The translations under genes and the position numbers were made by a program. Positions 18,988-62,686 of a stretch of 64,000 nucleotides of DNA are shown one piece after another (the stretch's first letter is position 1; every line of letters begins with the position of its first letter). Source of the DNA: a virus; IMG/VR virus record IMGVR_UViG_3300028829_003504, positions 62,001 to 126,000 of that record. The stretch is one strand, 5' to 3'. The notes under the pieces are model-generated. The model ran no database searches and was not told the DNA's origin. It saw only the letters and a program-made list of their open reading frames with translations.

Positions 18988-21156
18988 ATGATTAATGAAA
19001 TTCGTTTAAGGACGTTTACTTCGCAGGTTGGAGAGGATAATGAAGTTCTCTCCAGAGACCCGAAGCAGAACGCTATAGAATACGAAGGAGATACAGGTCC
19101 CAATACTAGATTAGTTGAGGATGTCGCCTTCAATAAAAAACTAGGTGTACTAACATTCATTAGAAACAACGGTGAAGTCATTGAAGCAAGCGGGTTCTTA
19201 ACAGAGGATCAGATAGGGCACGGCCCTAAAGGTAAGGTAGGTAGAATAGGTAAAGCAGGTCGTGATGGTGAAGAAGGCCGACTAGGTAAAGAAGGACCTG
19301 CTGGATGTGAAGGTGCGCAAGGTAATGCGGGCGATAAAGGGATGTCAGGTAGAGATGGTGAGGATGGTCCTGTAGGTATAGCAGGTACTTCTGGATGTGA
19401 AGGAGATGTAGGCCCTGAGGGTGACGAAGGGGATAAAGGTCCTAAAGGATTCCAAGGATCGATGGGTAAAGACGGGTTAGACTGTATCATAGGCTGTCCT
19501 GGACCTAAAGGGGAACAAGGTTTAGGTACTTTTGTAGTACAAAAGGAAACACCTACTGAGGAGCACGTATACTTATGGGGCGTTCCTTTTGAGAGCGTTT
19601 TACCTGAGTTACCCAAAAAGCCTGATGATATGTCAGCTTCAATCAATTCTATAGTAGTTACTATGACTAAGGATAGAGGTACTACTTATACTGCTTCAGG
19701 CTCTTTAATAGTGAGCGACTTTAAAGGTGGTGTAGGACCTTTCTCTATCATTTGGACAGGTGACTATAAAGCTAAGTTAGGTATAACTAAGGATAGTATA
19801 AGTAACGACAGCCTAAGATTATCACTTGATGCCTCCGCTGAAATAGAACCAGGTGAGGTTGCTGAGATTGCTGGCGATGCCGTTGTTACCATAACGGATA
19901 CGTCAAATGGTAAACAGCTAGTTTTACCTACTACGTATGAATTTAAAGGGAGCAACAGTACGGTAGTTGCTCCTCCCATATACGGTAACGTACGTGATGC
20001 AGCCGTTGTTGAAGGTGATGACTTAAAGTTCTTAGTAACTACTACGAGTCCTTTACTCTCATCAGTACGAATCACATATACGCTAAAGTCAGGAACAGCA
20101 GGAACCTCCGACTACAAGGATTTGGGTCAAGGTTACATGGACTTAAGCATAGGCGTGGACCAGTTCTACGTTAATGTAGAAGCAATACGCGATTCTATAC
20201 CTAACGAAGATGTGGAAACAATGTCGGTTACTGTTAGTATTCCTGGCGTATCTGAATTAAATGCAGGTGATATGACAGCAATAGGTACTATTACTGAGGC
20301 TGATAGCCATATAGTACCTATTGTCCTAGGGCCTGCAGTGGTGACGGAGGGAAGTACTGCAAAAATAACCATCAGGCTAGGTGGTTCTTACATAGAAGGT
20401 GTCACCGGCGGCTACGCAGTTAAGTATAGAACATTATCGGATACAGCGGGTACGTCGGACTACGTAGCTCGGTCTGGGACTCTAACTTTCACCTATAGTT
20501 GGGAAGAGAAAGTCATTGAAATAGCAACAATAGATGATTCTATTGTTGAAGCCACTGAGCAGTTTTATTTTGAGTTGTACGATGCAGGTGCACATCTTGA
20601 CTTAGGTGGAGATACTAAAAAAGTTACGGTTACAGTTAATGACAATGACGAAACTTATAGGGGTTCTACCGGCGGTGGGTGTATAGGATGGGGTGCGAAA
20701 GTTGAAACGCCTGAAGGTACTACATCTATAGAGACTGTATTGATAGGTGATACTATCCTAGGATACGCTGAGCCTAGTATGTCAACAAGTGCTAATTCAA
20801 ACGATCCAGAAGTATTAAACTGGCACGCCCTTGAGTTAAGAGGCAAACGTGCTTGGGTTATGGTTACAAATGCTAGGCATGATACATACCCTCAATACAA
20901 AGTTATCAACGATCTTAACTTAACTTTCGATCATCCTGTCATGACTAAGCGTGATGGCGTATGGCAGTGGCTACCTGCCCTGCAAGTTATAGTTAGTGAT
21001 ATTGTCCTAGGCACTGATAGTCAAGAAGTCCCAGTTACAATAGCTACAGAAGTATACAAAGAACTTAAAGTAGTAGAGCTTGACGTTGAGCCTCACGATG
21101 TCTATTATGTTAACGACATACTAGTCCACAATGTGAATAAAATTGTACATAAGTAA
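18988..21156 (+). CDS. Collagen-like tail fibre with two Calx-beta domains and a C-terminal Hint domain
   Basis: A 722-residue multidomain fibre. In order: a head module shared with four other genes (1-78, ending in SGFLTEDQIGHG), a Gly-X-Y collagen segment (79-180), a short cap (TFVVQKETP...LWGVP), an Ig/PKD-like domain (215-325), two Calx-beta domains (333-438 and 446-553), and a Hint domain (565-715). The Hint domain starts at Cys565 after GGG, has the TxxH block B (TFDHP, 646-649), and ends VHN, followed by only VNKIVHK. Hint domains catalyse protein splicing or self-cleavage. Here almost nothing follows the terminal Asn, so cleavage or attachment of the upstream fibre is likelier than splicing. 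It begins 2 nt after the previous gene. Confidence 0.85.
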   Translation: MINEIRLRTFTSQVGEDNEVLSRDPKQNAIEYEGDTGPNTRLVEDVAFNKKLGVLTFIRNNGEVIEASGFLTEDQIGHGPKGKVGRIGKAGRDGEEGRLGKEGPAGCEGAQGNAGDKGMSGRDGEDGPVGIAGTSGCEGDVGPEGDEGDKGPKGFQGSMGKDGLDCIIGCPGPKGEQGLGTFVVQKETPTEEHVYLWGVPFESVLPELPKKPDDMSASINSIVVTMTKDRGTTYTASGSLIVSDFKGGVGPFSIIWTGDYKAKLGITKDSISNDSLRLSLDASAEIEPGEVAEIAGDAVVTITDTSNGKQLVLPTTYEFKGSNSTVVAPPIYGNVRDAAVVEGDDLKFLVTTTSPLLSSVRITYTLKSGTAGTSDYKDLGQGYMDLSIGVDQFYVNVEAIRDSIPNEDVETMSVTVSIPGVSELNAGDMTAIGTITEADSHIVPIVLGPAVVTEGSTAKITIRLGGSYIEGVTGGYAVKYRTLSDTAGTSDYVARSGTLTFTYSWEEKVIEIATIDDSIVEATEQFYFELYDAGAHLDLGGDTKKVTVTVNDNDETYRGSTGGGCIGWGAKVETPEGTTSIETVLIGDTILGYAEPSMSTSANSNDPEVLNWHALELRGKRAWVMVTNARHDTYPQYKVINDLNLTFDHPVMTKRDGVWQWLPALQVIVSDIVLGTDSQEVPVTIATEVYKELKVVELDVEPHDVYYVNDILVHNVNKIVHK
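20680..21132 (+). other. Hint (hedgehog/intein) self-processing domain within the fibre gene
   Basis: Encodes Cys565 to Asn715. Visible blocks are A (CIGWGAKVETPEG, then IETVLIGDTIL), B (LTFDHPVMT), F (VVELDVEPHDVYYVN) and G (DILVHN). There is no endonuclease insertion. The residue after the terminal Asn is Val, not Cys, Ser or Thr, which argues against normal splicing and for a bacterial-intein-like or hedgehog-like reaction. No autoprocessing can be proved from sequence. Confidence 0.85.
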
Positions 21157-21166
21157 GGAGAATTAA

Positions 21167-21799
21167 ATGTTAACTAGACCTCCTATGGAATCAGTTAATG
21201 CTAACGGTACTGCCAGTCAGACTGACGTTATAGTTAAAGACGGGAAGTTAGCTGCGGGTAACAAAGAAGATAGTCAAACCGCTGAGGTACAAGATATATT
21301 CTTCGATTCTACTGTCGGTATTCTCGTCATAGAGTTTACTAATGGTGAGACTAAGCGTGTATCTGGGTTCCCTACGTTCGGAACTATACCGGATGGTCCT
21401 GCAGGTCCTACAGGCGACCCTGGTGAAGACGGAAAAGAGGGACGTGACGGACGTGACGGTGAAACAGGAGCACCTGGATGCTTCGGGCCTATTGGACCTA
21501 AAGGAGTAGAGGGTGATCCCGGACGCAATGGCGAAGATGGAGCACCCGGAGCACCTGGACCTAAAGGCTGTCCTGGTCCAGCAGGTAATAAGGGACCTAA
21601 AGGGGAACCTGGAGATGTGGGGGAACCTGGAGTACAAGGACCTCCAGGTGATACAGGTCCTCAAGGCCCTGAGGGTGAGCGTGGTCCAGCAGGTAAAATC
21701 AACTATATCATAAGTACATCAGACCCAGGAACTAGCGCAGGTGCTGGCAGTATATGGATTAATCCTAACATTACAGAAACCAGCCCGGCTTGGCCGTAG
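21167..21799 (+). CDS. Collagen-like tail fibre protein
   Basis: A 210-residue protein. A head module (1-76, starting MLTRPP and ending [13 protein letters not shown]) leads into about 100 residues of uninterrupted Gly-X-Y repeats (77-177, such as [20 protein letters not shown]). It ends in a cap shared with the paralogues, [16 protein letters not shown]. Phage collagen segments form trimeric rod-like fibres. AAGGAG precedes the ATG. Trimerisation is inferred from the family. Confidence 0.85.
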
Positions 21800-23412: not shown

Positions 23413-26070
23413 ATGGCACTTAACTTAGAACTATCAAGTTCGAATGAAAAGTCAGTACTATACGATGGTGAGTACGGAGATTTAGACTACATAGAAAGCT
23501 CCTTAACTTTATATTTTAGTGTAGAAGGAACTAGCTCGTATTCTGTTACGATTATCGATGCGGATACAGGAAACGACCAGACGTCTATCGTACAAGTCGG
23601 TCAGGGAACACTAACCATAGACCTTCGTATTCTAAAAAGTTATTTCACAATAGGTACTACCGTATTCGGTGGTACTGTTGTGTTACAGATAGACGATAAT
23701 GATAGTACTGATACTGGTCAGTTTAACATCGACTTCCATTTCGCCGTTACAAATAACGCAGTATACGTGGCTCCAGTGACATTCGGCCTCAGTACAAACG
23801 GTATTGCCATTAGTACTGAGTTACAGCGCAGTAGTGGTATTGATTTCGTTGAGCGCGCCGCGTATCCTACGGTAGAAGTACTTGGAGGCTCAGGTCCTTT
23901 CGAGTACACTTGGGTTCCTGCAAACTTTGAACACTTCTTAATAGAATCAGTAGAAGGTCTTGATACAGACAAACCTACCGTAAACTATAAACTCGATGTT
24001 GCGTCGGACCTACCTGAAGAACTATTTAATTCCGATGGAGGCAAGTGGACTCAGACAGGTATATTTAACGTAAGCGTTCGAGATACCAGTAACGGTGATA
24101 TCTCGTTAGGAGAAGTATCCTGGAGCTTCACTGTTAGTGTACAGGAGGAGGAAAGAGGCGACTCGGTAGTTAAAGAAAGCAGAATCATACCAGGACGATT
24201 TAGAGTACGAAACCCTCTCAATAGCTTCTGGTATGACTTATGTTATTATGAAATGTACGTCTTTGATAAAGATTACCTACAGTGGATTAGACTATTCCCT
24301 AATAAGGTGTTTGTGCGCGATGGAGGCAGCAGTGATTGGATTGAAATAGGTTGCATTACTGATACTTCCTATGACGACCCTTGTGCAGGCTTCGGGTCAG
24401 GTACCGATTGTTCAGGTGAACCTCAAGATCCTCTTGCGGGATCTGGTGATGGATTTGGTTCTAATGGTCCTTCATACGATGTCGATACAGGATATCCTGC
24501 AGGCTTTGATATGCCTGACAGCTCACTCGGTGGCTACGGTATTAAGATTGCACCTAAAGCCACTGGTTACGATACTCCGGTAGGTTACATAATGCAGCGT
24601 CCCGGACTACAGTCGGAAGAATCTTATGATCCTACAGGTCTATCTGCCGATGAAGGCGCTCACGGTAAGTATAATAGTCCTAACTTAAATGGAGCCAGCA
24701 CTTGGGGTAGAGGTGCAGCGGTTACTGAGACTATATATGAATTACCTGCACAGAATGGTTATTACGAACTTCTCTATGCTGCTTACGATTCCGTTAGTAT
24801 CGATGTTTACTACGTAGGTCAGCGAGTAGCTACAACATGTGGACCTGTGCCTAAGTTGACGCGAGGTCTATTGACGTTTAATGTTAACATAGCGACAGGT
24901 CTAGGTGAAAGACGTATCATGATTAGGGTACGTGGTGCCGAGGATGTTAGATGGGCTTACCAAGTAGTAGGTCCTAAAGCTTCACCTGTGCTACAAGATT
25001 TCGATAACCAAGACGATGATGATTACGCAAATATCAATGAGTTTCTTTACGAAGAATCTGAAATGATGCAAACCCAGTACATAGGTACGCCTATGTTTCC
25101 TGCACCCTGTCACGGCACTGTAGGTAATGTAGATCAGACGTTTCCTTGGGCATTATCTGATAGAATTGAGACGCAAAACTGGTTTGAGTACTATCACTAT
25201 GTCGGCGAAAACGGGGGTCCAATGGTGCTCGATTTTAGCTCATGGGCAGCCGCTGACTACGTTGAAATCTGGCAAAATGGGGTTCGGATAGCTACATCTC
25301 AAGATTATAACCAAACTCCAGGCTATGTTGATTTTATATATGAAGCCCGTGAAGGCGTTCAAGATATAATGGTTAGAGTGCATACAGAATCAAAAGGTAT
25401 GGGTCAAGATTTAAGTACTTGGTACTATACACTATTCTGCCCTAACGCAATTGGCCACAGAAGACAACCATGGCCTTGTGGGCCTGACGTTATATACAGC
25501 ATGGGACATCCTGCCACAGAGGATAACTTTGATATAGATAACGGCGTCGAGCGTGGTGCCTTTAAAGTATACATGCGAGAGTGTACGGCTACTACATTAG
25601 TTAGAGTATTCAATAGAGACGGAGACTTGATAACGTCGATGACGGGCGAAGGTGACTTCGATGTAGAGGCTTTCAATTTCGATGTGGTTACAGGAGAAGT
25701 ACATAAGGATATATATGTACGTGTTGAGACTTCTATAGGGCATGGTTGGCAATACACCGTAAGTTGTCCAGTACCTTTACTTGATATAATACTAAAACCT
25801 GTAGACCCAAGTGTAGAGTGGTCTATAACCGATGAAATTATACAGGACGATTCTGAGTATGTCGAACTTATCGTAAGCATAAACAAAGCCCAATTGGTTG
25901 ATAGGTCTATTGATTGGGCTACTAGCAACGACACTGCGTATGACCTAACGGACTACTGTGCTGCTAACGGAACTGTGACAATACCTGCTGGACAGACTAG
26001 TATTAAGATTCAAATTAATTTAGCTCCTTGTGATGCTGAGGATGAGGATGAGGATGCACCTAGCACCTGA
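23413..26070 (+). CDS. Large beta-rich tail adhesin with triplicated module
   Basis: An 885-residue protein without a collagen segment. After N-terminal Ig-like regions (1-240) and a linker with Cys pairs (CAGFGSGTDCSGEP) come three copies of a beta module of about 120 residues. These share YYVGQRVATT / WQNGVRIATS / FNRDGDLITS, then VRVRG...WAYQV, VRVHTE...WYYTLFCP and VRVETS...WQYTVSCP. A Calx-beta-like domain ends the protein, with an acidic tail (EDEDED). This build suits a receptor-binding fibre. It probably pairs with the short collagen protein 12 nt upstream. Confidence 0.6.
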   Translation: MALNLELSSSNEKSVLYDGEYGDLDYIESSLTLYFSVEGTSSYSVTIIDADTGNDQTSIVQVGQGTLTIDLRILKSYFTIGTTVFGGTVVLQIDDNDSTDTGQFNIDFHFAVTNNAVYVAPVTFGLSTNGIAISTELQRSSGIDFVERAAYPTVEVLGGSGPFEYTWVPANFEHFLIESVEGLDTDKPTVNYKLDVASDLPEELFNSDGGKWTQTGIFNVSVRDTSNGDISLGEVSWSFTVSVQEEERGDSVVKESRIIPGRFRVRNPLNSFWYDLCYYEMYVFDKDYLQWIRLFPNKVFVRDGGSSDWIEIGCITDTSYDDPCAGFGSGTDCSGEPQDPLAGSGDGFGSNGPSYDVDTGYPAGFDMPDSSLGGYGIKIAPKATGYDTPVGYIMQRPGLQSEESYDPTGLSADEGAHGKYNSPNLNGASTWGRGAAVTETIYELPAQNGYYELLYAAYDSVSIDVYYVGQRVATTCGPVPKLTRGLLTFNVNIATGLGERRIMIRVRGAEDVRWAYQVVGPKASPVLQDFDNQDDDDYANINEFLYEESEMMQTQYIGTPMFPAPCHGTVGNVDQTFPWALSDRIETQNWFEYYHYVGENGGPMVLDFSSWAAADYVEIWQNGVRIATSQDYNQTPGYVDFIYEAREGVQDIMVRVHTESKGMGQDLSTWYYTLFCPNAIGHRRQPWPCGPDVIYSMGHPATEDNFDIDNGVERGAFKVYMRECTATTLVRVFNRDGDLITSMTGEGDFDVEAFNFDVVTGEVHKDIYVRVETSIGHGWQYTVSCPVPLLDIILKPVDPSVEWSITDEIIQDDSEYVELIVSINKAQLVDRSIDWATSNDTAYDLTDYCAANGTVTIPAGQTSIKIQINLAPCDAEDEDEDAPST

Positions 26071-61830: not shown

Positions 61831-62686
61831 CTATACCGTCCATTCGTCGTGGGTTAGAAAAACCCCTAGTAGTACCTAGAGGATTACCTTTATTTTGTTT
61901 ACCTGATTTAGTTCTCGCGTGTGCATTCTCTAGCTCAGACCTATACTTAGTAAACTGGGCGCTGTGCTTTGCCTGCTTTAAGTCCTTATCCGTGTTGGCG
62001 ATAATGTTGGCGATAAACTGCTCCAACATTAAGTGCTTCATCCGCTTAGATAAGTTTTTTTGTTTCTCTAAAAGATAACTAACTAAGTCTGCCTGAGTAA
62101 CAGCGTGTATATAAGACTCTAAGGAAGTATCAGGCTCGATGTCCGCACCGAAACAATCCCGCATAACGGCTTCCAAATGGGCATTAGCACTATCGCCAGC
62201 AAAAGCAAGAGGAGCATGAGAGGCTAACATTAACTCAGTCATTTCCTCAGTAATGGTTTTAGTGTTTTCTACAATATTTTCTATATAGTCTTCATCTACG
62301 TCGATGACATTACCGAAAGGTATAGAACTTTCGTCTATAGTAGGTACAGAAGATAGTATAGTAGGTACTAAGTGATTCCGATGCTCGACTTCAACGACTT
62401 CATCAGGTCCTATTAGTATACCTTCGTCGTCAAATTCGCCGTCGTCGTAAGACGGGACTACGCTCTCACCATCAAGGTCGCTGTCCCAAATAGGTTCATC
62501 ATAATCATCGACGTAGGCAGGTTCGATAACAACTCTATCAGTAACTGGGATAGCTTGGCTACCGTCTAATGTAGGTAATATGTAAACACCGCTAAGTCCA
62601 TCAGTAATGAACCCGTGTATTTCAGAGGAGGGGTTCGCCTCCCCTGAGCAAGCCCCGTAAACGGGATGCTCTAGGTTCTTTGTCAT
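61820..62686 (-). CDS. Hypothetical protein, possible small terminase
   Basis: A 288-residue protein. The N-terminal 120 residues are acidic and probably disordered (YVDDYDEPIWDSDLDGES; EGILIGPDEVVEVEH). The C-terminal half is helical and ends basic (YRSELENAHARTKSGKQNKG). It directly precedes the large terminase with an 11-nt overlap, the usual place of the small subunit, but no DNA-binding motif is visible. Function stays open. Confidence 0.65.
   Translation of the reverse strand: MTKNLEHPVYGACSGEANPSSEIHGFITDGLSGVYILPTLDGSQAIPVTDRVVIEPAYVDDYDEPIWDSDLDGESVVPSYDDGEFDDEGILIGPDEVVEVEHRNHLVPTILSSVPTIDESSIPFGNVIDVDEDYIENIVENTKTITEEMTELMLASHAPLAFAGDSANAHLEAVMRDCFGADIEPDTSLESYIHAVTQADLVSYLLEKQKNLSKRMKHLMLEQFIANIIANTDKDLKQAKHSAQFTKYRSELENAHARTKSGKQNKGNPLGTTRGFSNPRRMDGIDGS

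Follow-up and report, generated by a model that had tools for sequence, protein, structure and literature searches.

A phage tail-fibre-like protein ending in a bacterial intein-like Hint domain, a putative removable terminal cap

The closest described relatives of the domain reported here are the A-type bacterial intein-like (BIL) domains, known to us through the accounts given in PMC7765530, PMC5874633 and PMC7664689 of the original work (Amitai 2003; Dassa 2004). BIL domains naturally lack a nucleophile at the residue following the domain (+1) and mostly yield cleaved products (PMC7664689); the A-type members keep the terminal His-Asn and are able to cleave and sometimes to splice (PMC7765530, PMC5874633). 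The hedgehog C-terminal (Hog) domain (PDB 1at0) likewise combines the Hint fold with a terminal placement, Cys1 and TxxH, and the Peptidase_S74 intramolecular chaperone is likewise a C-terminal domain that is self-removed from a phage fibre or spike (PMC7824862). The nearest named proteins are those of phage NCTB and Erwinia phage Y3, annotated in their records as 'putative phage tail protein, contains intein domain': they are direct orthologs of the gene described below, in the same synteny and with a C-terminal Hint, and belong to PHROG 38766, the family of this Hint-bearing fibre gene. In the open-licence literature we found neither functional work on PHROG 38766 proteins nor a description of terminal Hint domains on phage fibres.

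The gene lies in a 64,000-nucleotide stretch (the window; positions 62,001 to 126,000) of the IMG/VR virus record IMGVR_UViG_3300028829_003504, whose 261,788 bases hold a single match to the Hint profile. Its ORF is intact, and an identical copy is present in a second viral contig (L043). The original prediction of a collagen-like shaft and Calx-beta domains joined to a C-terminal Hint is confirmed, and all its motif positions are correct (table 1). Pfam recovers Collagen (E=3.4e-14; 29 uninterrupted Gly-X-Y triplets) and Calx-beta (E=1.7e-13), the PHROG 38766 match covers residues 40-340, and the N-terminal module finds matches at other places of the same genome from residues 37-48 onwards. 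The Hint motifs are GGG followed by Cys565, T646-F-D-H649-P, D704-VYYVND and V713-H714-N715, after which only V716NKIVHK722 remains. The Calx-beta region was inserted in the window lineage and is missing from every ortholog in the alignment; compared with the NCTB and Y3 proteins, the window copy carries two extra stretches between fibre body and Hint.

Table 1. Coordinates of the fibre gene, its parts and its neighbours in the window
Feature	Coordinates	Strand	Basis or remark
Upstream conserved collar/fibre protein, 784 aa	16632..18986	+	Basis for synteny and tree
Gene of the 722-aa tail-fibre-like protein that ends in the Hint	18988..21156	+	ORF; PHROG 38766 virion structural protein, E=2.2e-64
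N-terminal module, residues 1-77	18988..19218	+	Sequence resembles neighbouring collagen-like fibre genes; ortholog alignment
Collagen-like Gly-X-Y shaft, residues 79-165	19222..19482	+	Pfam, repeat reading
Post-collagen domain, ~residues 200-340	19585..20007	+	Last part common to Hint-less orthologs; alignment
Calx-beta region, two stretches, best 472-554	20008..20649	+	Pfam; lies after the fibre body and before the Hint
Predicted N-terminal scission point Gly564|Cys565	20677..20682	+	Based on block A and on the invariance of Cys
BIL-type Hint domain, residues 565-715	20680..21132	+	Cys565, T646xxH649, H714-N715
Seven-residue tail VNKIVHK after Asn715	21133..21153	+	Translation
GGAG, Shine-Dalgarno-like site for next fibre gene (ATG at 21167)	21157..21160	+	
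Next gene in cluster, collagen-like fibre	21167..21799	+	Pfam

The profile search against Hint models proposed with the original prediction succeeded with a family profile but not with the window sequence alone. As a single sequence, the domain gave nothing significant in Pfam and NCBIfam scans and stayed below threshold for every Hint model; the best, Pfam Hint_2 (E=0.082), scored 13.7 bits against a curated cut-off of 28.4, with relatives scoring higher. A profile of 14 orthologous or paralogous domains, in contrast, matched the BIL domain of PDB 2lwy over nearly its whole length (3.4e-12), followed by the gp41-1 inteins and Tetrahymena BIL2, and a wider family profile reached 2lwy at 6.4e-13. 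Twelve of the 14 members match PT-HINT and ten match Hint_2 at E<=1, the best single relatives at 7.6e-7 and 2.3e-6, respectively. An AlphaFold2 model of the domain, built from a 15-row alignment, has a mean pLDDT of 84, a pTM of 0.80 and values of 94-98 in most core blocks; a second model, covering the C-terminal half (508 aa), was of low quality beyond the Hint (pLDDT 55) and was set aside. Foldseek with the Hint model against the PDB returned 2lwy first (E=7.7e-8, target TM 0.81); there were 55 matches at E<=0.001, the best 50 of which are inteins, BIL and hedgehog domains, and BIL2 and 1at0 are also in the list. By both family profile and modeled fold the domain is closer to BIL domains than to inteins, and the assignment of residues 565-715 to the Hint family, made through the family profile and the predicted fold, is far beyond chance. 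The original prediction that the tail-fibre-like protein ends in a catalytically complete Hint is supported.

A-type BIL domains are the best match in sequence and fold. Both have Cys1, the terminal His-Asn and a variable, non-enzyme host protein, and the window copy, with Val at +1, also lacks the +1 nucleophile; they differ in that the window Hint caps the end of a phage fibre and is followed by a seven-residue tail, and in that most of its orthologs have Thr at +1. The other known systems fit less well. A class 1 intein is rejected on account of Val716 at +1 and of the seven residues left after Asn715, and because the Dickeya phage orthologs described below stop at the N-junction without a tail, their exteins not joined; the terminase inteins of the same viral sample have Cys at +1, whereas the window has Val. 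With so short a tail there is no sterol-recognition region for hedgehog-type transfer, the fold match to Hog being weaker as well, and no toxin domain as in the pretoxin Hints of polymorphic toxins. Peptidase_S74 is not among the Pfam matches of the 722-aa protein; its fold and chemistry are unrelated, and the likeness is one of analogy only.

Cys1, the T and H of TxxH and the terminal His-Asn are invariant in an alignment of 16 domains, in which the relatives are 25-34% identical to the window Hint. Pairwise dN/dS of the Hint, where computable, is 0.01-0.12, and the fibre body behaves alike. Mean identity among the Erwinia and Yersinia orthologs is 69% for the Hint and 72% for the post-collagen domain, and 43% for the linker before Cys1. 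Such is the pattern for a domain under selection for its chemistry and, given the invariant catalytic set and the strong purifying selection, the window Hint is very probably an active autoprocessing domain.

A tblastn search with the Hint returned 55 phage records: 48 from Erwinia phages, 2 from Dickeya phages, NCTB, Yersinia phage fHe-Yen9-02, two further records and a weak match to a Campylobacter DNA polymerase. The neighbours of the gene, the collar protein on one side and the collagen-like fibres on the other, do not change among the loci inspected. At this position JA29 and JA11, two Dickeya phages, encode an orthologous protein of 324 aa, which has no Hint and ends in ..TARNPK*, at the point where Hint-bearing relatives read ..VARNP, a short linker, Gly-Cys1 and the Hint; the post-Asn tail of the relatives is absent as well, which sets the gene apart from a plain inteinless allele. 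Since these orthologs stop there, the fibre is able to end at the junction, and this most telling finding fits a removable terminal cap, not an intein that needs a C-extein. A profile search of genomes found zero Hint matches in JA29, PaBG, HRDY3 and Lu11. The collar-protein tree has the JA phages as sister group of the enterobacterial phages that bear a Hint and joins the window and NCTB with Pseudomonas phages that lack one, which forces two changes; long branches make the placement of the window and NCTB less sure. The Hints of this fibre family form a moderately supported cluster (83/72) that is separate from other viral Hints, so that one ancestral acquisition followed by two losses is a reasonable but not proven scenario. 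No cellular relative of the Hint was found in a profile search of genome contigs.

The presence of a Hint varies on neighbouring fibre genes as well. In NCTB another fibre gene (L006:11346-15260), encoding 1304 aa, has GGGGGGC-Hint at its end; the window homologue (23413-26070, 885 aa) has no Hint, nor do those of Alexandra and Yoloswag. NCTB further encodes BN7874_135 (L006:9521-9982), a free-standing 153-aa Hint gene directly after the Hint-bearing fibre; it is divergent and has no residue at the Cys1 position of the alignment, which suggests degeneration or a function in trans. It should be noted that several proteins named 'large intein domain protein' or 'contains intein domain' have no Hint on reading (L011:10527-12548, L011:15473-15679 and L013:9619-10845). 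For Yoloswag (L011) a whole-genome profile search gave no Hint at these proteins, and the names look copied from NCTB. Alcaligenes phage Afa-NA1 (L013, 78 kb) and Salmonella phage Sen-NF (L014, 109 kb) encode an identical 476-aa Hint fibre; perhaps the labels of these 'complete genomes' are wrong or the records are fragments.

We favour, at a probability of roughly 60%, a reading in which the C-terminal 151 residues form a BIL-type Hint acting as a removable terminal cap. The fibre chain would fold first, after which Cys565 would attack the Gly564 carbonyl (N-S acyl shift); the thioester would be hydrolysed or otherwise resolved and the Hint released, leaving a fibre of 564 residues that ends in ..STGGG, and cyclisation of Asn715 could free the seven-residue tail. 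A point against this is that hydrolysis of a thioester without a nucleophile can be slow. By analogy, cleavage at Gly564|Cys565 would be the likeliest and most economical mechanism; its occurrence and timing, and a mature virion fibre free of the cap, are what we infer. The suggestion in the original prediction that self-cleavage exposes a new fibre end remains the best reading, and the Hint-less orthologs that end at the junction strengthen it. Purely by analogy with S74, the chaperone domain that removes itself from the C-terminus of other phage fibres, a plausible reason for such a cap is assembly control.

Against removal of the cap it can be said that the Hint is dispensable in the JA29/JA11 lineage, which also fits an optional domain that is kept. 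A rival reading is an inactive Hint that stays in the virion as a folded tip with a structural or receptor-binding role. The model is indeed a stable, compact fold, and the presence of the Hint differs among phages as it does for tip domains; a mere tip would, however, hardly keep the catalytic Cys, TxxH and His-Asn invariant among relatives so divergent, and the only copy that aligns without Cys1 is the free-standing NCTB gene. We consider a retained tip quite improbable, and less likely than autocleavage. Still less credence, very little in fact, goes to the idea that an intein, selfish or in decay, inserted itself at the end of the fibre gene. Weak Hint matches elsewhere in the Alexandra, Y3 and Yersinia phage genomes are probably true inteins, and terminase inteins have been reported for this phage group (PMC7412058), but 151 aa leave no room for a homing endonuclease, Val occupies +1, dN/dS is low, and in the Hint-less allele the two exteins are not rejoined.

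Removal by cleavage has also to be weighed against ligation, in which the Gly564-Cys565 thioester would be passed to the short tail (BIL-style splicing) or to an amine or other nucleophile on another fibre chain, a virion protein or a host molecule. Transfer of the latter kind, to another tail protein or the host surface, had been raised in the original prediction; no support for it was found. This chemistry is open to Hint domains, as in hedgehog transfer and A-type BIL splicing (PMC5874633, PMC7765530). At +1 the window and the Yersinia phage have Val, NCTB has Ala, Afa-NA1 has Met, and most Erwinia and Dickeya orthologs have Thr. The tail is kept in the Erwinia and Yersinia phages (78% identity), mostly with Thr at +1; its end in Erwinia phages, AEK, is encoded by GCGGAGAAA right before TAATG, which is the Shine-Dalgarno site of the next gene, and the preceding TDIVA is not accounted for by this overlap. 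Splicing onto the tail is therefore possible in the Erwinia phages, given the +1 Thr and a conserved tail that the Shine-Dalgarno site explains only in part. The original view that splicing is unlikely with Val at +1 is weak: BIL domains mostly cleave (PMC7664689), but A-type BILs sometimes splice (PMC5874633), and the Thr of most Erwinia-phage orthologs weakens the argument further. Against ligation stand the tails themselves, which are unrelated across lineages (VNKIVHK, AVMVAKK, TDIVAKAEKK) and lacking in JA29 and JA11, the overlap of AEK with the Shine-Dalgarno site, and the lack of a partner or sterol-binding region after the Hint. Altogether we regard ligation as unlikely, and its boldest form, in which terminal Hints would serve phages widely to assemble or anchor their fibres through a covalent bond, made by way of the thioester, with a second virion chain or a host-surface amine, as a long shot.

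The original prediction had also called the build unusual, which does not stand: besides the roughly 55 named phage records, it recurs on many unrelated viral structural proteins. To survey viral proteins we used a scan for the motif GCFVAGT, a sample thus chosen by motif, together with three loci from a profile scan. Among the matches listed, at least 43 complete viral ORFs have a Hint with the terminal His-Asn, and 28 of these 43 end 1-15 residues past it. The 28 fall, judged by eye, into about 12 families, and their +1 residue is K, A, I, G, V, F, L or M, never Cys, Ser or Thr. Five of the 43 listed have Cys at +1; the three checked all match terminase large subunits and read as true inteins. 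Terminal Hints were found on DUF4815, baseplate-hub N-terminal domain, Phage-tail_3/Rcc01698, PASTA and collagen-like proteins. A fold search of the BFVD placed NCTB copies on top (1304, 506 and 153 aa, by length), and the remaining matches include phage proteins named PASTA, fibronectin, Hint and 'Collagen triple helix repeat'. The architecture therefore recurs among viruses.

Two of the viral proteins, at L038:3562-6285 and L040:1-2418, carry long (S)PVGV repeats and end in closely similar Hints with four-residue tails; PASTA repeats are present in the former. A mirror image of the terminal cap is seen in viral proteins whose BIL-like Hint lies right at the N-terminal end (residue 17-47), with Lys or Gly at +1 and a long C-terminal part to follow (L063:2796-9362, L112, L126, L103 and L077); the first of these proteins matches tail tip protein J domains.

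The Hint of this fibre is no isolated case: many phage structural proteins end in Hint caps that are likewise uncharacterised. The phage group to which it belongs bears 'hairs' of unknown protein (PMC6143709), for which the collagen-like fibres are candidates. The same gene is present in isolated phages of Erwinia, Dickeya and Yersinia, and the Dickeya JA phages offer natural Hint-less controls. Should the cap be lost in vivo, intein-like autoprocessing would be a maturation step of many phage fibres and tail proteins, one that is absent from present models of fibre assembly.
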